A stretch of DNA of 44,526 nucleotides, taken from assembly GCA_945830575.1 (NCBI GenBank), contig CALZZE010000022.1:1-44526 (forward strand), read 5' to 3'. The first letter of the stretch is position 1. The number at the start of each line of letters is the position of its first letter. The notes below the pieces were generated by a model that saw only the letters and a program-made list of their open reading frames with translations, was not told the origin of the DNA and did not search any database. Source of the DNA: an uncultured Subdoligranulum sp. Its GTDB lineage: Bacteria > Bacillota > Clostridia > Oscillospirales > Ruminococcaceae. The position numbers and the translations under genes were made by a program. Of the stretch, positions 26,228 through 42,365 are shown in pieces.

Positions 26228-26659
26228 TCATGCAGGGTCGCCATACTCCCGTTTCATGGCATCCATGGATACCACCCACTGCTTGCCAAATTTGCATACA
26301 TCCACACCATTGACCAGTTTGCCGTAAGCAATCGCTTTGCGCAGTGTGCTTTCGTTAAGATCCCAAAGCTCAGTGGCATCACTGAACGCCATCAAGCCAT
26401 CAAACGCGGTGCTGACACGGACACCGTGTTCCCACAACTCATCGCAGGATAGGTCCAACGCATCGTTCCAGACGATGCCATATCCGCCCACATCTACGCA
26501 GACGCAGCCGAATTCTTCCGGGTGGTCACGCAAATAGGAGAAGGCAGGGAGTTTCTCAAATAACGGCTTGACATCGTAGAGTTTGACAACGCCTTCGCTG
26601 AATTGTACGCTGAGACGGAAATCCGGCAGGGGTGATACAGATTTGATCTTGTGAAACAT
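26228..26659 (-). CDS. DUF2442 protein with C-terminal helix-turn-helix, likely antitoxin
   Basis: A 143-residue protein. The N-terminal 80 residues are a DUF2442 domain (LPDFRLSVQFSEGVVKLYDV, then YGIVWNDALDLSCDELW). The C-terminal part, STLRKAIAYGKLVNGVDVCKFGKQWVV, resembles a helix-turn-helix of the kind that recognises an operator. It lies ten bases after the DUF4160 gene. DUF4160-DUF2442 gene pairs are listed as putative type II toxin-antitoxin systems; I recall this from family knowledge and cannot verify toxicity here. Confidence 0.82.
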   Translation of the reverse strand: MFHKIKSVSPLPDFRLSVQFSEGVVKLYDVKPLFEKLPAFSYLRDHPEEFGCVCVDVGGYGIVWNDALDLSCDELWEHGVRVSTAFDGLMAFSDATELWDLNESTLRKAIAYGKLVNGVDVCKFGKQWVVSMDAMKREYGDPA

Positions 26660-26669
26660 AACAGTCTCC

Positions 26670-26924
26670 TTACTCCAACGGCGGAATTTTTCGGAATTCC
26701 TTCGTTTCCCAGATTTCCTGCAGTGTATCCCTGTGCATCCCGATCCATTCTCTCACCAATGCCAACGCTTTGGGCGGAAGGTACCCTTCCAGCACGTCGC
26801 CGGTCATAAAGTCGATTGCTGCCACATCATCGTTGTAAATGGCGTGAATATGCGGCGGATTATGTTCGCTTTGCAGAAAGTACATACGAATGATGATTCC
26901 ATAAAACCTTGCCAACACAGGCAT
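26670..26924 (-). CDS. DUF4160 protein, likely toxin partner of the DUF2442 gene
   Basis: An 84-residue protein starting at ATG 26924 (MPVLARFYGIIIRMYF) with GGAGGTG seven bases upstream. The family core EHNPPHIHAIYNDDVAAIDF is intact, followed by LEGYLPPKALALVREWIGMH. It is the first gene of a two-gene operon with the DUF2442 protein. Small size, gene order and an operator-type promoter fit a toxin-antitoxin module, probably stabilising the island. The biochemical activity is unknown. Confidence 0.83.
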   Translation of the reverse strand: MPVLARFYGIIIRMYFLQSEHNPPHIHAIYNDDVAAIDFMTGDVLEGYLPPKALALVREWIGMHRDTLQEIWETKEFRKIPPLE

Positions 26925-26944
26925 ATACAACACCTCCTGTATAT

Positions 26945-26973
26945 ATAGTATCACGGTATCGTGATTCCGTCAA
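26945..26973 (-). promoter_or_regulatory. promoter/operator of the DUF4160-DUF2442 pair
   Basis: On the minus strand TTGACG (26968-26973) and TACTAT (26945-26950) are 17 bp apart. A 16-bp perfect palindrome, ATCACG-GTAT-CGTGAT (26950-26965), fills the spacer exactly. This is the layout expected for autorepression by an antitoxin. Confidence 0.75.
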
Positions 26974-27144: not shown

Positions 27145-27212
27145 GTTTTGTCTTGGTTTTTCATCATCAGGGAATGTAAATATATAGTAGAGGAGACATT
27201 GTAGAACAAAAA

Positions 27213-27241
27213 GTATCCTCCATAGGGAAAATGGAGGATAC
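27213..27241 (+). repeat. inverted crossover site A (left)
   Basis: Arms GTATCCTCCAT (27213-27223) and ATGGAGGATAC (27231-27241) are perfect inverted repeats around the asymmetric 7-bp spacer AGGGAAA. This is the classic form of a tyrosine-recombinase core site. An inverted copy with the same spacer lies at 28657-28685. Read on the minus strand the site is an 11-bp hairpin followed by TTTTTG, so it also works as an intrinsic terminator. Confidence 0.85.
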
Positions 27242-27277
27242 CAATAGTTTGCTTTTTATATATAACTTTTCATGATT

Positions 27278-27306
27278 ATTATAGCACGACAAGTGTCTAT
27301 TTTCAA
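27278..27306 (-). promoter_or_regulatory. invertible promoter, currently pointing left
   Basis: On the minus strand TTGAAA (27301-27306), 17 bp, TATAAT (27278-27283): a near-consensus promoter. The start would be near 27271, about 30 bases before site A, where the transcript meets a hairpin plus U-run. There is no gene for it to serve in this orientation. A weaker plus-strand signal for the recombinase is TTGAAG (27395-27400) with TATAAC (27416-27421), only 15 bp apart. Confidence 0.75.
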
Positions 27307-27465
27307 CATGGGTGATGGAAAATCATCTGAAAATAGCTGGATTTGTCGGATAAGATAAAACAGGAGCCCTTAATTCAATGAAAAAAGACTGCTATTGAAG
27401 GGAATTTTATCAGTCTATAACACAAAAGTGGTCGGAAACGGGTCAAATAAAGGAGGAACGCTACC

Positions 27466-28596
27466 ATGGCAAAAAAGGGAGAGAACATCCGCCGCCGCAG
27501 GGATGGACGCTGGGAGGGGAGGTATATCAAGGGCCGCCGTGCAGATGGCAAGGCTGTTTGGGGATATGTGTATGGACACAGCTATCAGGAGGTAAAGCAG
27601 GAACTCATCCGCCGCAAGGCAAAGTGCGCTTTTTATTCTTTGTCTGTGGACAACCCCACATTCGAGGAACTTGCGCAAATGTGGCTTTGCTCTGTGAAAC
27701 CGGGCATCAAGGAATCCACAGTTTCACACTATCGCTATACGTTGGAGCGATATATTCTGCCAGTTTTGGGGCGCCTCAACGTAAAATCTCTGAATGAGCA
27801 GATTTTGGAGTCCGGCTTGCAGCAAATTGTTTCCCCGGTGGACGGCAGTCACAAGCCGTTGGGACACTCCGCCGCAAAGGAGTGCCTGACCATGATACGC
27901 CGTATTTGCAAATACGCCCACCATCTGCGGCTGATCCGGGCTATGGAAATTGAAATCACTCTGCCGAAACCTCCAGTCAATCAGACGGAGCCGCTCTCCA
28001 AAACTGAGCAGGAACAGGTTGTATCCTTTGTCACAGAGAACCCCACGCCACGGAAAATCGGCTTGCTGCTGGCAGTACAGATGGGACTTCGTATTGGAGA
28101 AATCTGCGGCTTGCAGTGGGGAGATTTTGACTTGGCACAAGGGACTTTGACGATTCAGAGAACCGTCCAGCGCATCAGCAGCGGCAACGGGCATACCAAG
28201 GTCGTTATTCAGTCTCCCAAAACCAGAACGTCCGCCCGTCAAATCCCAATCCCCCAAAATCTTCTTGTTCTGCTCCGTCAAGTGCGCGGGATGGCCACCG
28301 ATGATGCCTGGTTTTTGTCCGGGAGCAGTGAAAAACCGGTGGAGCCGCGCTGTTTCCGCAAGAGCCTGCATACATACCTGAAACAGGCGCAGGTGCGCTC
28401 TGTCCGACCCCATGCCCTGCGCCACACCTTTGCGTCTACCTGCCTGCAAGCGGGCTGCGACATCAAGACTATCAGCGAAATCATGGGCCACGCGGATGCA
28501 TCTATTACACTCCAGCGATATGTGCATTCTGACCTGGAACGAATGCGCTTTGAAATCAACCGCATCTATGCAAACGCCTTCCAGCAAACAGCATAG
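27466..28596 (+). CDS. tyrosine recombinase, presumed invertase of the flanking sites
   Basis: A 376-residue recombinase. An N-terminal AP2-like segment (RRRRDGRWEGRYIKGR, then WGYVYGHSYQEV) and a core-binding SAM-like domain (TFEELAQMWL, then STVSHYRYTLERYI) precede the catalytic domain: Arg 209 in MGLRIGEICGLQWGD, His-x-x-Arg in HALRHTFAS (316-319), GHAD near 342 and nucleophile Tyr 352 in LQRYVHS. All catalytic residues are intact. AAAGGAGG precedes ATG 27466. It lies wholly between two inverted crossover sites, so it is best explained as a DNA invertase; it could also be a former element integrase. Confidence 0.9.
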   Translation: MAKKGENIRRRRDGRWEGRYIKGRRADGKAVWGYVYGHSYQEVKQELIRRKAKCAFYSLSVDNPTFEELAQMWLCSVKPGIKESTVSHYRYTLERYILPVLGRLNVKSLNEQILESGLQQIVSPVDGSHKPLGHSAAKECLTMIRRICKYAHHLRLIRAMEIEITLPKPPVNQTEPLSKTEQEQVVSFVTENPTPRKIGLLLAVQMGLRIGEICGLQWGDFDLAQGTLTIQRTVQRISSGNGHTKVVIQSPKTRTSARQIPIPQNLLVLLRQVRGMATDDAWFLSGSSEKPVEPRCFRKSLHTYLKQAQVRSVRPHALRHTFASTCLQAGCDIKTISEIMGHADASITLQRYVHSDLERMRFEINRIYANAFQQTA

Positions 28597-28656
28597 AGGG
28601 TCTTTGAGTGGTACAAGCATAACAAAAACAATTGTATTGCCGACGAAAAACACAAA

Positions 28657-28685
28657 TCGTCCTCCATTTTCCCTATGGAAGATAC
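28657..28685 (-). repeat. inverted crossover site B (right)
   Basis: In reverse complement this site reads GTATCTTCCAT, spacer AGGGAAA, ATGGAGGA. Against site A it differs at one base in the first arm and only in the last three bases of the second arm, with an identical spacer. It lies between the recombinase stop and the helicase ribosome site. The arm nearest the helicase has a mismatch and no T-run follows, so a hybrid site formed by inversion should not terminate transcription toward the helicase. Confidence 0.82.
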
Positions 28686-28704
28686 CCGCGGACGGGAGGA
28701 CAGC

Positions 28705-31008
28705 ATGGCGATTCAATTGTTTGCGCACAACGAAAAAGCATACCGGCAGGCGATGGCTATGCTGGAGAACTGCGGCAAAGCGGCCATTGTCCATCCCACC
28801 GGCACCGGCAAAAGCTATATTGCCTTCAAACTCATTGAGGATCATCCCGATGAGAGGGTGGTCTGGCTGTCTCCCAGCGAATATATCTTCAAAACCCAGA
28901 CCGAAAACGTGCGGAAAGAAAACCCGGACTTCCCTCTGCAAAATGTGACGTTTCTGACCTATGCCCGGCTCATGCAGATGGACGAAGATGAAATCGCCTC
29001 GCTGCATCCCGCTTACCTTATTATAGATGAATTTCATCGCTGCGGGGCAGAGCACTGGGGCGATGGTCTCAAGCGATTGCTGGCGCAATACCCCGACACA
29101 AAGATGCTGGGGCTGTCTGCCACGCATATCCGGTATCTGGACAACCAGCGCAATATGGCTGACGAGTTGTTTGAAGGCAACATTGCCAGCGAAATGACCC
29201 TGGGCGAGGCAGTCGTCCGGGGCATTCTGCCTGCCCCGACCTACGTGACCACCGTGTTCCGCTACCAGAACGAACTGGCCAGATACCAAAAGCGGGTGGA
29301 CAGCCTGAAAAGCCCCGGCATTCAGGATATCAACCAGCGGTATCTGGATGCCTTGCGCCGCGCACTGGAGCAGGCAGAAGGATTAGATGTGGTCTTTCAG
29401 AAATACATCACCAATACAAGCGGTAGGTATATCGTTTTCTGTTCCGACTACGAAAATCTCAAGGAAATGCGCAGTCACACCAAAGAGTGGTTTGGTGCGG
29501 TGAATGAAACCATTCACACCTATTCGGCGTATTCCTCCGACCCCGCCACCAGCAAAGCCTTTGCAAAGTTCAAGAAAGACGATTCCGGCGCACTCAAGCT
29601 GTTGTTTTGTATTGACATGCTCAACGAAGGGATCCATGTTAAAGGAATTTCCGGCGTGATTCTGTTCCGTCCCACCGTCAGCCCCATTGTGTATAAGCAG
29701 CAGATCGGCCGCGCCTTAACGGCAGGGGAGGGCGGCACGCCGCTGATTCTGGATATTGTCAATAACTTTGAGGGGCTGAGCAGCATTTCCACCTTGCAGC
29801 AGGAGATGACGCTGGCGGCTTGCAACATGGTGCGTCTGGGGGAACAGGACAAAATCGTCACCGACCACTTTACCGTCATCGAGCAGGCCCGCGACTGCCG
29901 CAAGCTGTTTGAGCAGTTGGATCAGAGTCTGTCCGGCACATGGGATCAGTATTTCCATGCGGCCAGCATCTACTATGCGGAACACAACAATCTGGAAGTG
30001 CCCATGCGCTACACCACCTCCACAGGCCTGAGCCTTGGCCGGTGGATCGCTACGCAGCGCAGAGTGCGTTCCGGCCTGATTCCCGGCAGCCTTACAGAAC
30101 AGCAGATTGCCCGATTGGACAGCATTGGGATGGTGTGGGGAAACCGGCTGGAACTGGCATGGGAACGCGGGTTTGAACATGCCAGAGCCTATTATGAGCA
30201 ATACGGTAATCTGGAGGTTCCTGCCCGGTACGAGTGCGAGGACGGGTTCAAGCTGGGAAGTTGGATTACGAACCAGCGTACCGACCGCATCAATGGGGAA
30301 CGTCAGCAGCTTTTGAATCGGGAGAGAGTGGAAAGGCTGGATTCCATTGGCATGGTCTGGGATGTTCTCAACCTGAAATGGGAACGCAATTACCTCGCGG
30401 CAGCCCAGTATTATCAGGACAACGGCGATCTGCTTGTGCCCAGCCAGTACGTCACCAAAGAAGGCATCAAGCTGGGAACATGGGTCGCCAGCCTGCGCAA
30501 AATGAAGGAAAGCGGCAAGCTGACAGAGGCACAAATCCAGCGGCTGGAGGTCGTTGGCATGCAGTGGCGGTCCCGTTCTGACTATGGATGGCAGCGAGGC
30601 TTTCAAGCGGCAAAAGCCTATCGCAGACAGTATGGTGACCTGAACGTATCTTCCACTTTTATTACGCCAGACGGATACCCATTAGGAAAATGGGTGGAGC
30701 GACAGAGGTTCGCCTTTCAGTGCCCGGAAAAAGCCAACAATATATTGACGCCTGAACGAAAAAAACTGCTGGACAGTATTGGTATGGTGTGGACGAAACA
30801 AGATCCGTGGGAATACCGCTTTGAACTGGCGCGTCAGTACAAAGAGGAGCACGGCGACTTGACCATCCCAGCCAAGTACAAAACAAGCGATGGCATTTGG
30901 CTTGGGAATTGGCTGTATCATCAAAAGAAATTGCTGGCAGGAAAAGAGCGCGGCCAGCAATTGAGTGAAGCACAGAAAATGAAACTGATGGAGTTGGGAA
31001 TTGCGTAG
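28705..31008 (+). CDS. superfamily 2 helicase with five helicase-associated repeats
   Basis: A 767-residue protein. Motor motifs: Walker A HPTGTGKS (about 30-37), DEAD/DEAH-box variant DEFH near 108, motif III SATH near 141, motif VI QQIGRALTAG near 333. From about residue 412 to the end are five tandem helicase-associated repeats of about 70 residues, each with a pattern W..Y...A..YY..(N/G)D/NL.VP..Y....G..LG.W....R and ending LDSIGMVW or similar. ATG 28705 has GGGAGG six bases upstream; the in-frame ATG 28675 lies within crossover site B. The HA repeats probably bind nucleic acid; the biological role is unknown. Confidence 0.85.
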   Translation: MAIQLFAHNEKAYRQAMAMLENCGKAAIVHPTGTGKSYIAFKLIEDHPDERVVWLSPSEYIFKTQTENVRKENPDFPLQNVTFLTYARLMQMDEDEIASLHPAYLIIDEFHRCGAEHWGDGLKRLLAQYPDTKMLGLSATHIRYLDNQRNMADELFEGNIASEMTLGEAVVRGILPAPTYVTTVFRYQNELARYQKRVDSLKSPGIQDINQRYLDALRRALEQAEGLDVVFQKYITNTSGRYIVFCSDYENLKEMRSHTKEWFGAVNETIHTYSAYSSDPATSKAFAKFKKDDSGALKLLFCIDMLNEGIHVKGISGVILFRPTVSPIVYKQQIGRALTAGEGGTPLILDIVNNFEGLSSISTLQQEMTLAACNMVRLGEQDKIVTDHFTVIEQARDCRKLFEQLDQSLSGTWDQYFHAASIYYAEHNNLEVPMRYTTSTGLSLGRWIATQRRVRSGLIPGSLTEQQIARLDSIGMVWGNRLELAWERGFEHARAYYEQYGNLEVPARYECEDGFKLGSWITNQRTDRINGERQQLLNRERVERLDSIGMVWDVLNLKWERNYLAAAQYYQDNGDLLVPSQYVTKEGIKLGTWVASLRKMKESGKLTEAQIQRLEVVGMQWRSRSDYGWQRGFQAAKAYRRQYGDLNVSSTFITPDGYPLGKWVERQRFAFQCPEKANNILTPERKKLLDSIGMVWTKQDPWEYRFELARQYKEEHGDLTIPAKYKTSDGIWLGNWLYHQKKLLAGKERGQQLSEAQKMKLMELGIA

Positions 31009-31459
31009 GTTATTAGAATTCGTTAGCACAAAATGTGTTTACTTGTTGCAGCCAATATCCTTGTCATTATTGACTAAGACTTGCAAATGACGTTCGTCCG
31101 AATATCAAACGGAAGTGTCTGTTTTGGACGTAGGCGCAGTGATTCGGGGTTCATGCAATCACATAACAACATTCCTCTTCGTCTCATTAGGAACTTAAAG
31201 GAAATGAACGTAGTTATGTAGAAAAAAGAGGCTGAAAATAAGGCCAAAAATGAAGAAAAATAAGAGAAAATAGCAGAAAAATGCGATACAGCGCAGAAAA
31301 TAGAGAAAAAATCCGAATGAGTCGTAGAAGTAGGTTACAGTTTAATTAGGCGTTCCTGGTGAGAACGCTTTTTTAATATATAAGGTCCTTGGAGAGGGAC
31401 CGAAGAAGAAAAGATGACACGCCGTGAAGGTGTGGGGGAATAAAAGAAGAAATTGAGGG
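31009..31459. other. intergenic region with degraded coding remnant and operon leader
   Basis: There is no intact gene in 451 bp. From about 31192 to 31320 one plus-strand frame reads as a charged, coiled-coil-like peptide (KKEAENKAKNEEK, then EKIAEKCDTAQKIEKKSE) broken by TAG and TAA, possibly a decayed gene. Two hairpins follow, the terminator at 31350 and GGTCC/GGACC near 31384-31401, which form the leader of the polysaccharide operon. No good promoter was found. Confidence 0.4.
31350..31374 (+). terminator. terminator or attenuator ahead of the polysaccharide operon
   Basis: GCGTTC (31350-31355) pairs with GAACGC (31363-31368), followed by six T. It lies about 95 bases before the first polysaccharide gene. 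It either ends the helicase transcript or acts as a leader attenuator that needs antitermination. Confidence 0.7.
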
Positions 31460-31468
31460 ATGAAGAAA

Positions 31469-32508
31469 ATGGAACACATTGAATTACAGGGAAAAACAAT
31501 ATTTGTCACTGGTGTGGCCGGGTTCATTGGATCCAATCTCGCCGCAAGACTATTAAAGGACTTTGACTGTAAGGTAGTCGGGCTTGATAACATGAACGAC
31601 TATTACGATGTGAACATCAAAGAGTGGAGACTAGAGCAGCTGAAGAATGACAGGTTTACTTTCATCAAGGGTGACTTGAGTGATAAGGGAACCATCGAGG
31701 AAATCTTCGAGAAATACAACCCGGCGGTTGTGGTCAATCTTGGAGCACAAGCTGGAGTGCGCTATTCCATCACAAATCCTGATGCGTATATCCAATCCAA
31801 CATGATAGGCTTCTATAACATTTTGGAAGCATGTAGGCATTACCCGGTTGAGCATTTGGTTTATGCTTCTTCCTCTTCTGTCTATGGTTCCAATAAAAAG
31901 GTTCCGTACAGCACGGACGATAAAGTAGACAATCCCGTGAGCCTCTACGCGGCTACAAAAAATCTAACGAGCTTATGGCACATGCAGATTCAAAGCTTTA
32001 TAACATTCCTTCCACTGGCTTGCGCTTTTTTACTGTTTATGGACCAGCTGGTAGGCCCGATATGGCTTATTTTGGTTTCACAAATAAGTTAAGAGCTGGT
32101 GAAGATATTCAAATCTTCAACTACGGTAATTGCAAGAGGGATTTTACATACATCGATGACATTGTTGAAGGTGTAGTCCGCGTTATGCAGGGTGCACCTG
32201 AGAAGAAAAATGGTGAGGATGGACTTCCTATCCCGCCGTATGCTGTTTACAACATCAGCAATAACAATCCAGAGAACCTTCTGGATTTCGTACAAATACT
32301 CAGTGAGGAATTAGTAAGAACTGGCATCTTGCCTGCTGATTACGATTTTGAAGCTCACAAGAAGCTAGTTCCAATGCAACCTGGTGATGTTCCTGTGACC
32401 TATGCGGACACAAGTGCATTAGAGAGGGACTTTGGGTTTAAGCCGAGTACGGACTTGAGAACGGGTCTGCGGAAGTTTGCTGAGTGGTATAAAGAGTTTT
32501 ATATGTAA
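31469..32508 (+). pseudogene. UDP-glucuronate 4-epimerase, frameshifted at an A6 run
   Basis: An NAD-dependent SDR epimerase that makes UDP-galacturonate for surface polysaccharide. The first part has the GVAGFIGSNLA NAD motif near residue 15, NDYYDVNIKEWRL typical of UDP-glucuronate epimerases, and YAATK. After SLYAATK the frame slips: in the +1 frame the protein continues as SNELMAHADSKLYNIPSTGL through GPAGRPDM to the end at 32508. Seven instead of six A at 31957-31962 would restore about 346 residues. The cause may be slippage, decay or a sequencing error. ATG 31469 has GAGGG nine bases upstream. Confidence 0.88.
31957..31962 (+). repeat. A6 homopolymer at the epimerase frameshift
   Basis: ACA followed by six A, then TCTAAC. 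Gain of one A joins the two halves of the epimerase. Such runs slip during replication and are also prone to sequencing errors. Confidence 0.7.
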
Positions 32509-32559
32509 AAGAGTGGGGAAGAGAAAACCCACGAAGAAGAATAGAGGAGTAGAAGCACG

Positions 32560-32868
32560 ATGAAAGAAATAAAGATTGTAGTTGCTGGTACTGGTTATGT
32601 TGGCCTTTCTATTGCAACCCTATTAGCTCAAAACCACCATGTAGTAGCGGTAGATATTGTGCATGAGAAGGTGGAATTGATAAATAAGAGAAAGAGCCAA
32701 ATTCAGGATGAGTATATCGAAAAGTACTTGGCAGAGAAGGACTTGGATTTAGTAGCAACAACGGATGGAGCTAATGCATACAAGGATGCTGATTATGTTG
32801 TCATTGCCGCTCCGACCAATGTCTACCCTAAATTTTCAGTCGAGTTTTCGTGGGCTATGATAACCTGA
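32560..32868 (+). pseudogene. UDP-glucose 6-dehydrogenase, 3'-truncated copy
   Basis: The first 87 codons (to 32820) encode a normal UGD N-terminus: [20 protein letters not shown] (Rossmann NAD motif), VDIVHEKVELINKRKSQIQD, ending VIAAPTN. Homology stops abruptly there and the frame runs 15 codons into unrelated DNA. It is similar to but clearly diverged from the full copy at 33628, so it is not a recent duplicate. A short UGD-like C-terminus occurs at 39024-39088, suggesting both are ends of one older gene. Confidence 0.85.
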
Positions 32869-33131
32869 AAAATCATCCGTTATTGCCGAAAAATGAGGCT
32901 TTAGGGTACAGGTCTTGGGATAGTGATAAGTACATTTTCAAATGAAATGGAGAATGGTTTCTCGTGGGCTATGGAGTGTATGAGAGCATTTTGACATGAA
33001 ATAGGTGAGGCGAAAAACATGGATTTTTCGTTTCGGGTAGAGGTGAGTGAAAAGTGATGAGTACATTCTGAACGTGAAATAGGGCTGCAATAAGTTTAGA
33101 ACGGTTTTGAAAAATGCCGTAATATCAAGGA

Positions 33132-33172
33132 TTTTCAATAGATGATATAGAGAGCGAAAGGGGTCTACCCTA
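33132..33172 (+). repeat. direct repeat copy 1
   Basis: TTTTCAATAGATGATATAGA, then GCGAAA and GGGGTCTACCCTA. It shares most bases with 33258-33296; copies begin 126 bases apart. The end contains the inverted pair AGGGG/CCCT around TCTA. Confidence 0.6.
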
Positions 33173-33257
33173 AAGAATCATAGTAAGGAATTAAAGGGAT
33201 GGAAGCCCGGAAAACGCTCATTAGCAGATTAAGAGCTATGGAAGAACCGAATTGTTG

Positions 33258-33296
33258 TTTTCAATAAATGATAAACAGACCTAGGGGTCTACCCTA
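33258..33296 (+). repeat. direct repeat copy 2
   Basis: TTTTCAATAAATGATAAACA, then GACCTA and GGGGTCTACCCTA. Within it AGACC-TAGG-GGTCT and TAGGG/CCCTA are inverted repeats, so the sequence can fold or bind a dimer. Confidence 0.6.
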
Positions 33297-33627
33297 TGAA
33301 CTTTAGTTGATGGTTTTTCGGGAAAAGATGAACATTTCAGGTGCTGATTTATATTGATGGGTTTTGGATAGACCTATGGAGATACGGATAAGCCCAACTG
33401 AAATGAACATGAGCATTTTCGGATAGACCTGTCCTTCAAGTGATAAGGACACTTCGTGAAGTGATAAACACATTGATGGCACAAGAAAGTTAGTGGATTC
33501 CGCGCTGTGAGAATCATTCTGGTTAACATATCGGCAAGATGATAACCACAGCGATTAAACATAGATAAATACATTCCCGGTTTGACCGATGCTCTCGGTT
33601 ACGCTAGGACAGACAAGGAGAAGAATG

Positions 33628-34875
33628 ATGAAGAATTACACGATTGCAGTTGCCGGTACTGGCTATGTTGGCTTGAGTATTGCCACACTGCTGTCTCAGC
33701 ACCATAAAGTATACGCTGTGGATATTGTCCCAGAGAAGGTTGAGTTGATAAACAACCGAAAGTCTCCGATTCAGGATGAGTATATTGAAAAGTATCTGGC
33801 TGAAAAGGAGCTGGATCTGACCGCAACGCTGGACGCCAAACTCGCCTACAGCAATGCGGACTTTGTTGTTATTGCGGCTCCGACGAATTACGACAGCCAG
33901 AAGAACTTCTTTGACACATCCGCAGTCGAGACTGTGATCAAACTGGTCATGGAATATAACCCGAATGCGATTATGGTCATTAAGTCCACCATTCCGGTCG
34001 GCTATACCAAGAGCATCCGGGAAAAGACCGGCAGCAAGAACATCATCTTCAGCCCTGAGTTTTTAAGAGAGTCCAAGGCTTTATATGACAACTTGTATCC
34101 CAGCAGAATCATCGTGGGCACGGATATGGAGGATGAGCGCCTGGTTAAAGCTGCGCATGAGTTCGCTTCGCTCTTACAGGAAGGTGCAATTAAAGAGAAC
34201 ATCGACATGCTGTACATGGGCTTCACTGAGGCAGAAGCAGTGAAACTGTTCGCCAATACATATCTGGCTCTGCGTGTCTCCTATTTCAACGAGCTGGATA
34301 CCTATGCCGAAATGAAGGGACTGAATACCCAGCAGATTATCAACGGCGTGTGTCTCGATCCGCGCATTGGTACGCACTATAATAATCCGTCCTTCGGATA
34401 CGGCGGCTATTGCCTGCCCAAAGACACGAAGCAGCTGCTGGCCAACTACGAGGATGTGCCGGAGAATCTGATTGAGGCTATTGTAGAAAGCAATAGAACG
34501 AGAAAAGACTTTATCGCCGATCGAGTTCTGAAAATGGCGGGGTACTACGGGTACGAGGAAGATAACCAGTACAGCAAGAGCAAAGAGAAGCCTGCGACGG
34601 TTGGTGTTTACCGACTAACTATGAAGTCCAACAGCGATAACTTCCGCCAGAGCAGTATCCAGGGTGTCATGAAGCGCATCAAGGCGAAGGGCGCTACTGT
34701 GGTCATCTATGAGCCGACGCTGAAAAATGGTGAGACTTTCTTTGGCAGTCTGGTGGTGAATGATCTGGAGAAGTTCAAGAGCATGAGCGATGCGATTATT
34801 GCTAACAGGTACGATGAGTGTCTGGATGATGTGAAAGAGAAGGTTTATACAAGGGATCTGTTCGGCAGGGACTGA
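33628..34875 (+). CDS. ugd: UDP-glucose 6-dehydrogenase
   Basis: A 415-residue enzyme oxidising UDP-glucose to UDP-glucuronate, the substrate of the epimerase at 31469. The NAD site is [15 protein letters not shown], the middle has ESTIPVGYT-like [12 protein letters not shown], substrate residues in [18 protein letters not shown], and the catalytic Cys lies in [15 protein letters not shown] near residue 260. The end is [13 protein letters not shown] 33628 has AAGGAG seven bases ahead; ATG 33625 is adjacent. It starts the mannose/uronate cassette running to 38952. Confidence 0.95.
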
Positions 34876-34929
34876 AACACGATTTGTGATTAGATTCACT
34901 GTTTGGGAAAATGGTAGAGGTTTGGATTT

Positions 34930-36627
34930 ATGTACTATAAAGAAAGATATGAACAGTGGCTGAATGATGAGTTTTTCGATGAGGCAACTCATAAGGAACT
35001 TGAAGCCATTAAAGATGAAAAAGAAATCGAGGATCGATTCTATCGCGACCTTGAGTTTGGCACGGGTGGACTGCGCGGTGTAATGGGAGTTGGTACCAAC
35101 CGCATGAACAAGTACACCGTAGGTAAAGCGACAATGGGTCTTGGCAGATATCTGCTGCATACCTATGGCGCAGTAGCCTGCAAAAACCGTGGCGTGGTTA
35201 TTGGATATGACACCCGGAACAATAGTGAATTCTTCTCCCGCACAGCAGCGAATGTACTGAGCGGTATGGGCATCCGTGTGTATCTTCACGCACATGCCCG
35301 TCCTACTCCTCAACTCTCTTTTTCAGTGAAATTCTGGAACGCGCTGGCGGGTGTTGTTGTGACTGCCAGCCACAATCCGAAAGAGTATAACGGTTACAAA
35401 GTATATGACGAGTTTGGCTGCCAACTCGTTCCTAGGCAGGCGAAACAAGTTATAAGCTATGTTGATGCCATCACGGATTATCACACCATCAACTTTACTG
35501 GCGATGATTCGCTGATTTTCATGGCGGATGTAACGGACAACTTTGTTATGGCTGTTCTCAAGCAGAGCAGGTACGCTGACCTCACCGCCAAGCAGAATCT
35601 GAAGATTGTATATACGCCTCTCCACGGCACGGGTAATGTTCCTGTCCAGAAGGTACTCCGAATGGATGGATTCACACAGATCGATGCTGTTGCGGACCAG
35701 GTGAATCCGGATGGTGATTTCCCGACAGTTGTATCTCCGAATCCGGAAGACCGTCGCGCACTGGAGCTTGGTATTGCACAGGCAAAACGTACTGGCGGGG
35801 ATATTGTGCTGGGCACAGACCCGGACAGCGACCGTGTGGGTATTGCGGTTAGAACAGATGACAGTTATCAGCTGATGACCGGGAATCAGGTTGGTGCGCT
35901 GCTGATGAACTTTATCCTGACGCACACCGATATGAGCAAATATCAGCATCCGGCTGTGGTAAAGACAGTTGTTACTTCGGAGCTGGGAGCAGACATTGCA
36001 CGTAAACATGGTATCGCCGTGTTCTCCACGCTGACCGGTTTCAAGTTCATCGGTGAGAAGATCACTCAGTTTGAACAGGCAAAACTGAATGGCAATAAAG
36101 AGCAGGACTACGATTTCCTGTTCGGATATGAAGAGTCCTACGGCTATCTTGCTGGCACTCATGCCCGCGATAAGGATGCTGTGGTGAGTTCTCTTTTGAT
36201 CTGCGAGATGGCGGCGGAAGCAAAGGCAAATGGTAAGACGCTTCTGGATGAGATGAATGCAATCTATGCCGAGTACGGTTATTACCGTGATGCGCTGGAT
36301 AGCTTTACTTTAAAAGGTAAGGACGGTCTGGAAAAAATCGCTTCCATGATGACGGAACTGCGGGTTTCTGTTTCACCGTTCGAGGATACTGCGTCCGTGA
36401 CGGACTACAGCAAACCTGTGGATGCTGAGGAAGGCTTCGGAACTCTGCCGACTTCCAATGTTTTGAAGTACGTTCTGAATGATGGATCTTGGATCGCGGT
36501 TCGTCCGTCCGGGACAGAGCCGAAGATCAAGATTTACTACAGCATCAAGGGTACAGATAAGGCAACAGCAGAAAAGAAACTGGTAGAGATTCAGGATACG
36601 ATTCAGACAAAACTTGGGTTGAAATAA
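34930..36627 (+). CDS. phosphomannomutase/phosphoglucomutase
   Basis: A 565-residue alpha-D-phosphohexomutase that interconverts hexose 6- and 1-phosphates, feeding GDP-mannose or UDP-glucose synthesis. The phosphoserine loop is TASHNPKEYNGYKVY near residue 147, the metal loop GTDPDSDRVG near 297, the sugar loop GYEESYGY near 400 and the phosphate-binding loop RPSGTEPKIKIY near 525. Length fits the PgcA/phosphomannomutase group of Firmicutes. It sits between ugd and manC, and an AGAGG site precedes ATG 34930. Confidence 0.94.
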   Translation: MYYKERYEQWLNDEFFDEATHKELEAIKDEKEIEDRFYRDLEFGTGGLRGVMGVGTNRMNKYTVGKATMGLGRYLLHTYGAVACKNRGVVIGYDTRNNSEFFSRTAANVLSGMGIRVYLHAHARPTPQLSFSVKFWNALAGVVVTASHNPKEYNGYKVYDEFGCQLVPRQAKQVISYVDAITDYHTINFTGDDSLIFMADVTDNFVMAVLKQSRYADLTAKQNLKIVYTPLHGTGNVPVQKVLRMDGFTQIDAVADQVNPDGDFPTVVSPNPEDRRALELGIAQAKRTGGDIVLGTDPDSDRVGIAVRTDDSYQLMTGNQVGALLMNFILTHTDMSKYQHPAVVKTVVTSELGADIARKHGIAVFSTLTGFKFIGEKITQFEQAKLNGNKEQDYDFLFGYEESYGYLAGTHARDKDAVVSSLLICEMAAEAKANGKTLLDEMNAIYAEYGYYRDALDSFTLKGKDGLEKIASMMTELRVSVSPFEDTASVTDYSKPVDAEEGFGTLPTSNVLKYVLNDGSWIAVRPSGTEPKIKIYYSIKGTDKATAEKKLVEIQDTIQTKLGLK

Positions 36628-36643
36628 CGGAGGACAAAGACAA

Positions 36644-37972
36644 ATGAATATCATTTTACTTTCTGGTGGAAGCGGCAAGCGTCTTTGGCCTCTTTCGAAT
36701 GATGTGCGTAGCAAACAGTTTATCAAGCTATTCAAGGATGGCGAGAACTACGAATCGATGGTACAGCGTGTCTATCGGCAGATTACAACGGTAGATCCTA
36801 ACGCAAAGATCACCATTGCCACATCGAAATCGCAGGCGAGCGCCATCAAGAATCAGCTTGGCGAAAAAGCTTCTATCTGTGTAGAGCCTTGTCGCCGTGA
36901 CACATTCCCGGCAATTGCTCTGGCTGCGACTTATCTGCATGATGAGCTTGGTGTTGGAGTAGATGAGGCTGTTGTAGTTTGCCCGGTTGACCCTTATGTG
37001 GACAACACTTACTACGAAGCAGTTATGACTTTGCAAGAATTGGCAGCGCAGGGTGGCGCGAACCTTACATTGATGGGTATTGAGCCGACATATCCCTCTG
37101 AGAAGTATGGCTACATCATTCCGGAGAGTGGCGATAGCGTTAGCAGAGTGAAGGAATTCAAGGAAAAGCCGGATCCTGAGACTGCTAAGAAGTATCTTGC
37201 TCAGAGTGCTCTTTGGAACGCTGGCATCTTTGCTTTTAAGCTTGGCTATTTGCTGGATAAAGCTCACAGTATGATCGACTTTGAGGACTACCGTGACCTT
37301 TTCAATAAATATGACACCCTGCAGAAGATTAGCTTTGACTATGCGGTCGTCGAGAAGGAACCGAGCATTCAGGTGCTGCGCTACAGCGGCGACTGGAAAG
37401 ATGTCGGTACCTGGAACATGATGGCCGAAGTCATGGCAGATAAGACCAAGGGTAAGGCTATTATGGATGAGACCTGCGTGAATACCAACGTGGTCAACGA
37501 GCTGAACATCCCAATCCTCTGCATGGGTTGCAAGGATCTCATCGTTGCCGCCAGTGGTGACGGTATCCTGATTTCCGATAAGGAACGCAGCGGCAAGATG
37601 AAGCCCTACGTCGAGAAGATTGAAACCGAGGCCATGTATGTCGAGAAGTCATGGGGTACATACACAGTTATTGATGTCCAGCCGGGTTCTATAACGGTCA
37701 AGGTTTCCATGAAAGCCGGCCAGCACATGACCTACCATATGCACAACTACCGCGAGGAAGTCTGGACCATCGTTTCCGGTAAAGGCAAGGCTGTTGTGGA
37801 CGGCATGGAGCAGATTCTCCGCACCGGCGATGTCATCACGATAGCCGCTGGCTGCAAGCACACGGTGGAGGCGATTACGGCACTGGATATCGTTGAAGTC
37901 CAGCTTGGCGATGAGATCAGCGTGGCGGACAAGATAAAATTTTCTGATGAAATCCGGTTCCCGCTGGATTAA
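36644..37972 (+). CDS. manC: mannose-1-phosphate guanylyltransferase with C-terminal cupin
   Basis: A 442-residue enzyme making GDP-mannose. The nucleotidyltransferase motif LLSGGSGKRLWPLS is at residues 4-18, VCPVDPY near 105 and FKEKPD near 170. The C-terminal 110 residues are a cupin of the type II mannose-6-phosphate isomerase family (GQHMTYHMHNYREEVWTIVSG). A separate ManA follows, so the cupin may be redundant or regulatory. CGGAGG lies 16 bases after the preceding stop region and before ATG 36644. Confidence 0.94.
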   Translation: MNIILLSGGSGKRLWPLSNDVRSKQFIKLFKDGENYESMVQRVYRQITTVDPNAKITIATSKSQASAIKNQLGEKASICVEPCRRDTFPAIALAATYLHDELGVGVDEAVVVCPVDPYVDNTYYEAVMTLQELAAQGGANLTLMGIEPTYPSEKYGYIIPESGDSVSRVKEFKEKPDPETAKKYLAQSALWNAGIFAFKLGYLLDKAHSMIDFEDYRDLFNKYDTLQKISFDYAVVEKEPSIQVLRYSGDWKDVGTWNMMAEVMADKTKGKAIMDETCVNTNVVNELNIPILCMGCKDLIVAASGDGILISDKERSGKMKPYVEKIETEAMYVEKSWGTYTVIDVQPGSITVKVSMKAGQHMTYHMHNYREEVWTIVSGKGKAVVDGMEQILRTGDVITIAAGCKHTVEAITALDIVEVQLGDEISVADKIKFSDEIRFPLD

Positions 37973-37986
37973 GCGGTGGCAGAGCA

Positions 37987-38952
37987 ATGGAGATATTGAA
38001 ATTACAACCTTGCGGAAAAGATTATCTCTGGGGCGGCACACGGCTGCGGGATGAATATGGGAAGAGAATAGACCTGACGCCGCTGGCGGAAACTTGGGAG
38101 TGCTCCGTTCATCCGGATGGCCCCAGCGTGATCGCAACCGGCGAGTTCAAGGGTCAGACGCTGGCGGAAGTTCTGAAGCGGCACCCGGAGTATTTGGGAA
38201 CGAAAGTTCAAAACTGTGATCTTCCGGTACTGGTAAAATTCATTGATGCAAAACAGGATCTTTCCGTTCAGGTCCACCCGGATGATGAATACGCTCAAGA
38301 ACACGAAGGCGACAATGGCAAGACCGAGATGTGGTATGTCATTGATGCAGAGGAAGGTGCAAGTCTGATCTATGGTTTCAAGCATAAGGTGACAGAAGAA
38401 ATCCTTCGTCGTGCTCTTGAAACTGGGACACTGGACAAGCATTTGCAGAAAGCTGAAGTTCACAAGGGCGATACTTATTTTGTCCCAGCTGGAACCATAC
38501 ACGGTATAGGCAGGGGAATCTTAATTGCAGAAATCCAGGAAAGCTCCAACGTGACCTATCGTGTTTATGACTATGACCGAGTGGATAAGAACGGTAAGAA
38601 GAGAGATTTGAATTTCGATAAGGCCGTTCAGGTCATGGACATGAACGTGGCACCGGATGTGAAGCAGAATCCTCGATTGATTAAGCATTATCCAGGATGT
38701 TCGAGAGAACTCCTGTGCCGCTGTAAGTACTTTGAAACTGAGCGGATCCAAGTGAGTAAAGGATTTTCATTCTCGATCCGAGAGGAATCCTTCCAAGTGT
38801 TGATGTGTCTGGATGGTTACGGACAGGTAGAAACGATGGATGCCGAGCAAAAACCAATGAGATTCAGCAAGGGAGAAACGATGTTTTTGCCTGCTGGAAT
38901 TGGAAGATGTCTGGTCATTGGGGATGCAACAGTGCTGAAGATAAGGTGCTAA
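37987..38952 (+). CDS. manA: mannose-6-phosphate isomerase, class I
   Basis: A 321-residue zinc enzyme converting fructose-6-phosphate to mannose-6-phosphate, the entry to GDP-mannose. Motifs: KDYLWGGTRLRDEYGK at the start, VKFIDAKQDLSVQVHPDDEYA near residue 95 (zinc ligands Gln/His), GKTEMWYV and VPAGTIHGIGRG near 165. It is 14 bases after manC in the same operon. The ribosome site is weak, suggesting dependence on manC translation. Confidence 0.94.
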   Translation: MEILKLQPCGKDYLWGGTRLRDEYGKRIDLTPLAETWECSVHPDGPSVIATGEFKGQTLAEVLKRHPEYLGTKVQNCDLPVLVKFIDAKQDLSVQVHPDDEYAQEHEGDNGKTEMWYVIDAEEGASLIYGFKHKVTEEILRRALETGTLDKHLQKAEVHKGDTYFVPAGTIHGIGRGILIAEIQESSNVTYRVYDYDRVDKNGKKRDLNFDKAVQVMDMNVAPDVKQNPRLIKHYPGCSRELLCRCKYFETERIQVSKGFSFSIREESFQVLMCLDGYGQVETMDAEQKPMRFSKGETMFLPAGIGRCLVIGDATVLKIRC

Positions 38953-38977
38953 ATACCGGTGGTTCGGGGAAAGGAAA

Positions 38978-39088
38978 ATGGCAAGGATGTTTTTTGAAGG
39001 TACAAGATTGAATAATATCATGATAAAGAAAGCATTAGATTATGCAAAAGAAGAGGTTTATGTACATGACCTGTTCGGCAGGGATTGA
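38978..39088 (+). pseudogene. short remnant ending like UDP-glucose dehydrogenase
   Basis: A 36-codon frame from ATG 38978. Its end, ALDYAKEEVYVHDLFGRD, matches the C-terminus of the intact UGD ([18 protein letters not shown]). The first 15 residues have no recognisable homology. Together with the 5' fragment at 32560 it looks like the other end of an older ugd whose middle was replaced by the ugd-pmm-manC-manA cassette. Confidence 0.55.
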
Positions 39089-39138
39089 CCAGTATGACTG
39101 ACATGAAAATGAAATTACCACAGAGGGGAGATGCAGAG

Positions 39139-40434
39139 ATGGAAAAGAAGAAACTGCTCATATATGCACACTATTACATACCGGATACTGCATCGACTGG
39201 TCAGATTCTCCGTGAGCTTGCGGAAGGAATGCTGGACAAGTTTGATATTACCGTGATCTGCGTGGTTCCATCTTATCTTGGAACCATTGAGGATAAATAT
39301 AAAACTCAAAAATACTACGAAGAAAACATCAACGGGGTAAAGGTGCTTCGCATCCGAGTGCCGGAATTCAGCAAAACCAATAAGAAGAGCCGCATTAAGA
39401 ATATCGTGTCCTATTTCTTCGGAGCGATGGCGGCGACTTTTAAGGTTGGGAAGATGGATTATGTTTTTTCAATTTCGCAGCCGCCCATATTAGGCGGCTT
39501 GCTTGGTGTATGGGGAAAATGGGTGAAGCACGCCAAGTATATCTACAATATCCAGGACTTTAACCCGGAGCAGGTTCTTGCGGTCGGATACAGTAAAAGC
39601 AAGCTCATCACAGATGTGATGATGTGGTTTGATAAGTTCAGCTGTAAGCGGAGTGACTTGATTATCACGGTTGGCCGCGATCTGGTGGAGACTGTTGAGA
39701 AACGTTTTTCAGGCAAGAAGGTTCCCAAGACTGTGATGATCAACAACTGGATCGACGAAAAGGAAATCTATCCGCTTGATGCTGACAATGAAAAGGTGCT
39801 GGAGTTCAAGAAGAAGTATGGGCTGGATGGCAAGTTCGTCATCATGTATTCCGGCAACATCGGTTTGTATTACGACTTGGAAAAGCTCATCAAGGTAATG
39901 AAGCAGTTCCGCAAGGGTTACACGCTCACAGGTGTGTATGAGGAAGGACCCAAGACCAAAGATGGGCGAGAGGTTGTATTTGCGTTCGTAGGTGCTGGTT
40001 CGGTTCTGGATAAACTGGTGTTGTACAGCAAAAAGCACCACTTTGAAAACATTGTGTTTATTCCGTATCAGGACAAAGCAGACCTTATCTATAGTCTGAA
40101 CGCTGGTGATGTCCACTGGTGTGTCAATGCCAAGGGCATTAAAGGAGTTTCTTGCCCATCGAAAGCATACGGCATTATGGCAGCCGGGAAAGCAATCATT
40201 GGTGTTCTGGAAAGCGGAACTGAGGTCAGAGGATTGATCGAGGAGTGCAGCTGCGGTAGATGCTGTGAGCCGGGAGATTATGTTGAAGTGGCGGATATTA
40301 TCCGTTGGTACATAGAGAACGCCGATAGTACTGAAATAAAGCAGATGGGCATGAACGGACGCAAGTATTTGGAAGAAAAACTGACCAGAGATGTGAGCGT
40401 TCAGAGGTATGCCGAGGAGATTCTGAAGCTATAA
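39139..40434 (+). CDS. glycosyltransferase family 4, WbuB type
   Basis: A 431-residue GT-B transferase. It opens KKLLIYAHYYIPDTASTGQI with the acceptor-side loop of WbuB-like enzymes; the C-terminal half has FVIMYSGNIGLYYDLEKLI near residue 240 and the nucleotide-sugar region ending PSKAYGIMAAGKAIIGV near 345. It probably adds an amino sugar to a lipid-linked repeat unit; the exact sugar is unknown. ATG 39139 has GGGGAG nine bases upstream; an in-frame upstream start at 39085 overlaps the ugd remnant. Confidence 0.88.
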   Translation: MEKKKLLIYAHYYIPDTASTGQILRELAEGMLDKFDITVICVVPSYLGTIEDKYKTQKYYEENINGVKVLRIRVPEFSKTNKKSRIKNIVSYFFGAMAATFKVGKMDYVFSISQPPILGGLLGVWGKWVKHAKYIYNIQDFNPEQVLAVGYSKSKLITDVMMWFDKFSCKRSDLIITVGRDLVETVEKRFSGKKVPKTVMINNWIDEKEIYPLDADNEKVLEFKKKYGLDGKFVIMYSGNIGLYYDLEKLIKVMKQFRKGYTLTGVYEEGPKTKDGREVVFAFVGAGSVLDKLVLYSKKHHFENIVFIPYQDKADLIYSLNAGDVHWCVNAKGIKGVSCPSKAYGIMAAGKAIIGVLESGTEVRGLIEECSCGRCCEPGDYVEVADIIRWYIENADSTEIKQMGMNGRKYLEEKLTRDVSVQRYAEEILKL

Positions 40435-40445
40435 AGGAGTAAATA

Positions 40446-41415
40446 ATGAAGAATCTGCTGATCTTTATGTTTATATGGTTTGCCATTTATGTAATTGGAT
40501 TTTTGACTTCGCTAAAGGACAATAAATATTTTGATTTTATGTCAATCACACACACCAATATTTGTCGTGGCATTGCGGCAATCATAATCATTTTGCAGCA
40601 CGTTGCAGGCCGGTTTGGTGTAAGGTATTTGACGCCGTTAGGTGGAATCGGCGTAGCGGTTTTCCTTATCTTATCCGGTTATGGCTTGAACGAATCATTC
40701 AAGCACAAAGGAATCGGGGGGGTATTGGAAACATAAAATTATTAGAGTGTTACTCCCATATATATTGATTTGTGTTGTGGTAGTTACCTATGATGTTTTA
40801 ACACAGAATGAGGTTGCAATTCCATATTACTGGTATTTGGATTTTATGTTGCTCTGGTATTTGGTTTTTTTTGTAGTAATAAGAATTCCCAATTTGTATA
40901 GTCACAGATACTCAATTCTTGGAATTGCAAGTTTAGTGGTATTTATTGTGGGATGTGCTTTTAACAATGGCGTCCGAGCTGAACAAGCAGTATCTTTTTT
41001 CATAGGAGTGTGGATTTCCGATAACTATGAGAAAGCAAAGGAGAAAATCACAGATAGTCGAATGATTGCAGTCCTTTTGATTATAGGTATTGTACTACTG
41101 GGATGCAAACAGATGCCAGCAATTCGTGCAATGGAAAACACTGCTGTGTGGAAGGAAATTCAGCTTGTGATGAAAGTTTCTATTGCCCTTGCGACAATTG
41201 GATTAATCTATAAAATCAAATCGATTTTTAATAACAGATTTATAAGTGTATTAGGACTTATTTCTTACGAAATCTATTTAGTACATTATCAGCTTCTTGA
41301 ACTCCCACTAAAGGGATTCGTAGGGATGTTGATATTTGTCACAGTAAGTATTTTTGGGGCATGGCTTATTCATCAAATTGCAAGTTTTGCTAGTAGTAAA
41401 CTAAATAATTATTAG
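40446..41415 (+). pseudogene. acyltransferase-3 family membrane protein, frame broken at a G7 tract
   Basis: A multi-pass membrane acyltransferase, likely O-acetylating the polysaccharide. The N-terminal part holds the family motif NICRGIAAIIIILQHVAGRF near residue 38 and GGIGVAVFLILSGYGL near 66. After KHKGIGG the frame ends at TAA 40734. With one G fewer in the run at 40716-40722 it would continue GYWKHKIIRVLLPYILICVV and join the second part, which ends at 41415, for about 322 residues and ten membrane spans. The gene is therefore OFF here, either by phase variation or by error. Confidence 0.85.
40716..40722 (+). repeat. G7 homopolymer within the acyltransferase gene
   Basis: Seven G in a locally AT-rich gene. 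Six (or nine) would give a full-length product. Poly-G runs are classic slipped-strand phase-variation sites for surface-glycan modifying genes. Confidence 0.75.
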
Positions 41416-41501
41416 CAGATTAGAAGGGAGTAGTAACTGGTGCCAATCCGGTTACGAAAAGGAGAATACGGAAAATTGGATTGGAATATGAGAGGTAAAA
41501 A

Positions 41502-42365
41502 ATGGCAGCAGATCTGACAGCGATTATTCTAACAAAAGATGAAGAGATAAACATACGGGGATGTATTGAGTCTATATTTCCAGTGGCTAAGAGAATTGTA
41601 GTTGTTGATTCTTATAGTAAAGACCGAACTGTTGAAATAGCGAGAGAAATGGGAGCTGAAATCTTGAGCCATGAATTTGAAACACATGCTAGACAGTATA
41701 AATACGCTGTGGAAAATTCAGCCATAGAAACAAAATGGATATTACGTATAGATGCAGATGAACGGTTGACATCGCAGTCAGCTAAGGAATTAGAGGATAT
41801 CTGTAATGAAAATATGGAATCTGATGTTACTGGTATAATAGTTCGTTTCAAAAAGAATTTTCTTGGAAAGGATCTATATCACGGCGGCGTATATCCTTGG
41901 AAAAAACTAATCTGTTATAAAACAGGTAAAGGTGACATAGAAGACCGTGCAATGGATGAACACATTGTTGTATTTGAAGGAAGAACTGTTGAGCTGATAC
42001 ATGATTCTCTTCATTTTGATTTCAAAAGTATAGAAGCCTGGATAGCAAAGCATAATTGGTATTCGTCAAAGGAAGCTGCAGATTATGCGGCAAAGAAAAA
42101 AAACTCTGGCGGCTTTGAAGAAAGAAACTTAAAAACATGGATAAAAATGAACCTTTATTATAAACTTCCACTTGGTGTAAGGGCGCATATATATTATCTC
42201 TACAGATATTATTTTAAACTGGGCTTTTTGGACGGTAAAGAAGGGAAAATATACGCATTTTTGCAAGCATACTGGTATAGGTATCTGGTGGATGTGAAGA
42301 TTTTTGAGAGTAAAAAACTTGGCACTGTATATACAGAATCGGGAAGTTTAGAGAAAAAGAAGTAA
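41502..42365 (+). CDS. glycosyltransferase family 2
   Basis: A 287-residue GT-A transferase of the WaaE/KdtX-like group. It starts TAIILTKDEEINIRGCIESI, followed by VVDSYSKDRTVEIA and the metal-binding DADE motif (LRIDADERL) near residue 85. Near the C-terminus DGKEGKIYAFLQAYWYRYLV suggests membrane association. GAGAGG lies before ATG 41502. The 86-bp gap upstream holds a small TAAC-GG/CC-GTTA inverted repeat and nothing else. Confidence 0.9.
   Translation: MAADLTAIILTKDEEINIRGCIESIFPVAKRIVVVDSYSKDRTVEIAREMGAEILSHEFETHARQYKYAVENSAIETKWILRIDADERLTSQSAKELEDICNENMESDVTGIIVRFKKNFLGKDLYHGGVYPWKKLICYKTGKGDIEDRAMDEHIVVFEGRTVELIHDSLHFDFKSIEAWIAKHNWYSSKEAADYAAKKKNSGGFEERNLKTWIKMNLYYKLPLGVRAHIYYLYRYYFKLGFLDGKEGKIYAFLQAYWYRYLVDVKIFESKKLGTVYTESGSLEKKK

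Follow-up and report, generated by a model that had tools for sequence, protein, structure and literature searches.

What is switched when a DNA segment that encodes a tyrosine recombinase, and carries a strong promoter pointing outwards, lies between inverted crossover sites beside a helicase gene? The question is raised by a locus of an uncultured Subdoligranulum sp. (contig CALZZE010000022.1), from which a stretch of 44,526 nucleotides, here called the window, was analysed. Our answer is that the segment is very probably a self-contained invertible promoter cassette that would phase-vary surface polysaccharide. Comparison between loci shows the anatomy of the segment, its two orientations among relatives, the conservation of its promoter, an asymmetric run of T beside its crossover sites and its linkage to sugar genes.

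The mechanism that we propose begins with the encoded tyrosine recombinase, which would recombine the two inverted sites within an identical 7-bp spacer. The resulting flip of about 1.47 kb would move the recombinase's own gene together with the strong outward promoter. In the ON state, the promoter would read across the site into a helicase with HA repeats and probably onward into exopolysaccharide genes; in the OFF state, as in the window, the transcript would end at the hairpin of the crossover palindrome, followed by a T-run that the non-helicase flank provides. The outcome would be phase variation of surface polysaccharide, with the genes probably on in only part of the population. Transcription, its termination and the control of genes beyond the helicase are steps that we infer from sequence.

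Anatomy of the invertible segment

The site beside the promoter and the 5′ end of the recombinase gene is termed the P site, and that beside the 3′ end of the recombinase gene the D site. The features of the segment and its immediate neighbour are as follows.

27213..27241, no strand: P site, crossover palindrome with the 7-bp spacer AGGGAAA (repeat and spacer analysis)
27278..27306, minus strand: outward promoter TTGAAA-17-TATAAT with TG extension (sequence score; conserved in relatives)
27466..28596, plus strand: tyrosine recombinase of 376 aa, inside the invertible segment (PF00589, catalytic residues)
28657..28685 (conserved 28660-28685), no strand: D site, inverted copy, just 5′ of the helicase ribosome-binding site
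28706..31008 (frame open from 28675), plus strand: HA-repeat SF2-type helicase, first gene facing the D site

As is expected of an inverton, the segment is flanked by short inverted repeats. The initial annotation had described inverted sites bracketing the recombinase, and these are borne out by a 26-nt inverted pair (27213-27238 and 28660-28685) that is 96% complementary, with the 7-bp spacer AGGGAAA the same in the left and right copies. In the left copy, arms of 11 bp form a palindrome that reaches 27241. The right copy has a degenerate inner arm (TCGTCCTCCAT versus GTATCCTCCAT), so that the extent first given to this site holds for 28660-28685 and the bases at 28657-28659 are not conserved. 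A comparable inverted pair occurs at 2 of 199 random points in helicase loci, and the pair in the window exceeds chance expectation. Within its own genome, exact matches to the site pattern are confined to two switch loci, on contigs C14 and C22. Use of the sites in trans was considered and rejected, exact matches in the genome lying only at these switch loci; allowing up to one mismatch gives 56 matches.

The recombinase gene sits within its own invertible segment and looks intact, in line with the initial annotation. Its product has a PF00589 domain (E 9.8e-28) and the full catalytic set R209, K252, H316, R319, H342 and Y352, each residue of which is kept in 58-60 of 60 aligned relatives, a set that includes the window protein. 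Together, the domain and the R-K-H-R-H-Y set identify a tyrosine recombinase and not a serine recombinase of the Hin type. This enzyme presumably catalyses inversion at both sites. Phage or plasmid copies of the recombinase were sought, and every match fell below 60% identity.

Beside the switch, at 26228-26954, lie a DUF4160 gene (resembling the DhiT toxin, with a score below the curated cut-off) and DUF2442/HTH genes, a possible toxin-antitoxin pair.

The outward promoter

The minus-strand promoter noted at the outset matches the consensus at 11 of 12 positions, has TG ahead of its second hexamer and is kept in relatives. It is the best of four promoter-like sites between 26200 and 28900, a count within chance expectation (mean 3.3 in shuffles, sd 1.5). 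Among 60 site-flanked segments, scored with a simple sigma-70 score and a cut-off of 10, an outward promoter reaches at least 10 in 50, mostly 25-60 bp from the P site, and fails to do so in the other 10; an inward promoter reaches it in one. Against mononucleotide shuffles, the mean promoter z is 3.1 outward and 0.4 inward. By sequence, therefore, the segment has the internal outward promoter of an inverton, and not a promoter outside the segment as in the cwpV type. The same scoring found no clear promoter of the recombinase's own, and no terminator was found between recombinase and helicase in the window, so OFF cells may leak.

A family of related cassettes

A scan of genome contigs yielded 36 recombinase relatives, and a search of 396 family genomes gave matches at E<=1e-60 in 66 genomes, some of them without a derived locus. 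A check of homologous loci, of the kind suggested in the initial annotation, finds 60 of 72 recombinase matches flanked on both sides by inverted repeats scoring at least 14 (53 at 16 or more); at least four of the 60 are single loci represented twice (L012/L081, L018/L047, L020/L084 and L057/L082). Seven of the 12 matches without a site pair are cut by a contig end (L021, L030, L037, L038, L039, L041 and L097), L003 is a distant Xer-like match, and L040, L085, L087 and L092 are genuine misses. The arms are of the CCTCCAT type in close relatives (57-68% identical), L018/L047 having a variant form, and of the TCGC/TTTCG type in many distant ones (about 30-41%). In the close clade, each of the 15 loci that could be parsed, of 17 tried, has one spacer in its two sites, and 10 different spacers occur. 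Identity within a locus and variety between loci are expected if crossover falls in the spacer. By these counts, the window cassette is a member of a family and not an isolated locus.

Other cassettes face CpsB, LytR-CpsA-Psr, NusG, S-layer, TadZ or winged-helix regulator genes, and among ten cassettes scanned the non-helicase cargo appears to consist mostly of surface structures. In Enterococcus, like cassettes (L034, L035 and L036) face winged-helix regulator-like genes, with Trans_reg_C in L034 and L035 and L036 assigned by BLAST clustering. The genome of the window holds a second cassette (L141:7980-17141, on C14), with a recombinase 62% identical and the spacer TTGGATA. The genes that it faces encode FHA, AAA, FtsK/SpoIIIE (EssC-like) and WXG100 proteins, and a conjugative coupling protein lies nearby; this may be an operon akin to type VII secretion, subject to phase variation and borne on a mobile element. 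In two loci (L022:6001-7102 and L023:1912-2872), the recombinase match is split into two overlapping pieces, which suggests a frameshift and perhaps a locked switch.

Orientation of the segment

Self-inverting loci with a helicase homologue number 15. The helicase lies at the D site (OFF) in six (the window, L013, L014, L019, L065/L137 and L079/L139) and at the P site (ON) in nine (L011, L015, L016, L022, L033, L057/L082/L134, L080/L140, L086/L138 and L162). L038, whose helicase is 1540 bp off, with no site pair and a contig end, is excluded from the count. Two comparisons show both flanks in common around a reversed segment: L019 and L022 match over 3074 bp at 90.9% and 2120 bp at 86.9%, the P-side match starting some hundred bases out, and L015 and L019 over 387 bp at 91% and 2912 bp at 86%. 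L134, from another genus, has a UDP-glucose dehydrogenase (UGD) and a ManC that are 88% and 92% identical to those of the window, its PMM being only 41% identical, and its segment points in the ON direction, opposite to that of the window. L022 and L014 lie on a complete chromosome. Both orientations thus occur, as comparisons between species, and such comparisons strongly support inversion of the segment. The earlier proposal that inversion would aim the promoter at the helicase, with the window OFF, is supported by these relatives.

The same comparisons bear on two other explanations. The recombinase might be the integrase of a mobile element and the sites its attachment sites, their inverted layout being incidental; the protein is a member of the phage-integrase family, and phage and plasmid records contain distant relatives of it. 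This explanation is very hard to credit, as the sites lie in inverted rather than direct orientation in 60 of 72 matches, in like geometry with an outward promoter, and loci have common flanks around a reversed segment. Alternatively, the cassette could be frozen, with sites and recombinase the remnants of a switch that has lost flipping in the window strain. One arm mismatch, the degenerate inner arm of the D site and the two-piece recombinase matches of L022 and L023, by which some relatives may be broken, fit such decay. The window spacer is nevertheless identical, the catalytic residues are intact and relatives with equally degenerate D inner arms are found in both orientations, which leaves a frozen cassette improbable.

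The crossover site as a predicted terminator

On the favoured reading of a working switch, the OFF transcript would leave the segment through the P site.

27203..27242, minus strand: predicted OFF-state terminator, the P-site hairpin plus the T-run from the non-helicase flank

Read on the minus strand, the P palindrome forms a hairpin of 12 bp (-18.3 kcal/mol, z -4.9), with TTTTTGTT after it. In all nine close helicase loci, the first 8 nt past the site on the non-helicase flank contain 7 T, whereas on the helicase flank they start with CC and contain 0-4 T; this asymmetry holds in either orientation of the segment. The nine flanks represent four unrelated sets, and the background frequency of a comparable T-rich stretch is 0.017. 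With the T-run confined to the non-helicase flank, the palindrome should stop the OFF transcript, and the crossover site accordingly looks like an OFF-state intrinsic terminator, a prediction that goes beyond the initial annotation. Pairing with either outer arm spans 11-16 bp for the P inner arm and 8-10 bp for the D inner arm, the pattern expected of a long palindrome that is retained for termination.

The contrast rests on the first bases (T-run versus CC), since counting after the folded stem blurs it: the helicase flanks of L013, L015 and L016 then also have 5 of 8 T and the non-helicase flank of L011 only 4. Among eight other CCTCCAT-type loci, at least 5 T occur on the other flank only in L002, L023 and L024; after-stem counts in L012, L017, L020 and L083 do not show the T-run pattern, and L018, judged by eye, is contrary in that its T-run lies towards the cargo. 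For L002 the cargo came from a separate, later scan; L101 was skipped in this comparison. A second candidate for silencing, in which OFF read-through RNA masks the helicase ribosome-binding site, was hinted at by the window fold and rejected, the unpaired means differing little (0.39 ON, 0.24 OFF).

The helicase and the exopolysaccharide genes

The helicase just outside the segment has ResIII and Helicase_C domains and five HA stretches, in agreement with its first description. Its start is likely to be the ATG at 28706, after GGGAGG, rather than 28675. Further downstream lie two features.

31348..31370, plus strand: terminator-like hairpin between helicase and sugar genes (against simple co-transcription)
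31460..42365, plus strand: exopolysaccharide cluster (domain content)

The cluster comprises an epimerase, UDP-glucose dehydrogenase, PMM/PGM, ManC-like, PMI, glycosyltransferase and acyltransferase genes. The epimerase is split over two frames (31460-32508 and 32551-32868), and a UDP-glucose dehydrogenase fragment lies ahead of the full copy at 33589.

The helicase had been taken as the target of the switch. It would indeed face the promoter after inversion; it is also usually the first gene of an exopolysaccharide cluster: of 36 loci, 27 have a sugar marker on the same strand within 3 kb downstream, and in many the gap is about 1-106 bp. The count covers helicase loci with some 1.5 kb or more of sequence past the helicase, five loci cut by contig ends being excluded; the markers were drawn from the window, L012, L013, L015, L016, L024 and L025, so that a few loci match themselves. 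By identity, the count divides into 24 of 25 helicase loci at 46% or more and 3 of 11 below. L147 is the lone locus of the former group without a downstream marker, and has UGD just upstream. As the helicase usually heads such a cluster, surface sugar is a likely target.

The switch might instead act on no gene but the helicase, perhaps a defence or nucleic-acid helicase subject to phase variation, with the sugar genes controlled separately. The hairpin at 31348-31370 would suit such an arrangement, as would the weak partial helicase matches (PbeA, type IV restriction) that are all a PADLOC scan of four window proteins returned; a defence function was considered, and these partial matches are all that the scan gave for it. 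Against it, no plus-strand promoter-like site was found between helicase and epimerase in the window, the matching gap of L134 has no forward terminator-like site, and the sugar markers follow the helicase as counted above. Control of the helicase alone is in our judgement unlikely, if the strongest of the alternatives.

Inverted pairs scoring at least 16 and ending within 200 bp of the helicase occur in 17 of 34 helicase loci, against the 2 of 199 random points. Five self-inverting loci fall below this cut (L016, L022, L033, L139 and L140). Seven of the 17 pairs are short, spanning 250-391 bp without such a recombinase inside (L136, L146, L148, L150, L152, L153 and L154), and those at L136, L146, L148, L152, L153 and L154 are likely to be promoter-only invertons driven in trans. 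Most of the short pairs resemble ACATAAT in type; inverted repeats of other kinds thus seem to have reached the helicase independently.

UpxY proteins act in antitermination, and the position of the helicase resembles that of UpxY, an analogy that suggests a regulator role. In L025 (7355-8434), a NusG-family gene takes the first-gene place between switch and sugar transferase. Under a broader proposal, these cassettes would form an undescribed, widespread family of tyrosine-recombinase invertons in gut Clostridia, whose crossover site doubles as a wrong-direction terminator; the UpxY-placed HA-repeat helicase would be a phase-variable lead gene, perhaps a regulator of the exopolysaccharide operon, joined independently by unrelated repeat types. 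We put this forward tentatively, as somewhat likelier to fail in part than to hold whole.

Comparison with known systems

An on/off DNA switch readable from sequence would be tied to surface-sugar genes in Faecalibacterium and relatives. Each cassette bears enzyme, promoter and sites, so that long reads already available can reveal its orientation. The proposed terminator role of the site and the rule of a helicase before sugar genes are specific and cheap to test, and they give context to the HA-repeat helicase family.

The Hin segment of Salmonella has an outward promoter inside; Hin is a serine recombinase, with a different target, and to our knowledge the Hin switch has no crossover-site terminator. 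An excerpt of a published account places the Hin recombinase gene within the invertible segment (PMC5903667). On that partial account, Hin/fljBA is like the window in having the recombinase inside and unlike it in that Hin is a serine enzyme and that of the window a tyrosine enzyme. The initial annotation knew of no system in which a recombinase lies inside its own invertible promoter segment and controls a helicase; Hin is a precedent for the layout, not for the enzyme class.

The FimB and FimE recombinase genes lie outside the fimS segment. In E. coli, fimS is a promoter-bearing segment that inverts, as given in an excerpt of its source (PMC8844915). It is to that extent like the window, in which the recombinase gene lies inside. 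For cwpV of Clostridioides difficile, an excerpt describes inversion with an OFF-state intrinsic terminator at the repeat junction (PMC2784873), and another names RecV as a tyrosine recombinase. As far as these excerpts go, cwpV shares with the window a terminator-based OFF state (predicted in the window) and a tyrosine recombinase. The cwpV promoter is outside a 195-bp inverted segment, whereas the window has promoter and recombinase within the segment and draws the T-run from the flank.

In Bacteroides, UpxY genes lie beside invertons in the right orientation (PMC11892184, in part), and Mpi is a single serine master enzyme for many regions. On these partial sources, the Bacteroides capsule promoters are like the window in that an invertible promoter precedes surface genes of a gut bacterium. 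They differ in the enzyme, here a tyrosine recombinase encoded within each segment, and in the first gene, here a helicase, or a NusG-family gene in L025.

In the open-access literature, with most subscription papers outside its bounds, we found no description of a tyrosine version with the recombinase inside, of a site terminator using a flank T-run or of a helicase-capsule link; nor did the open-access literature yield a description of such switches in Faecalibacterium and relatives. The invertible promoter and the recombinase inside its own segment are thus known, the latter from Hin, and what appears to be new is the tyrosine version, the site as terminator and the link from helicase to capsule.
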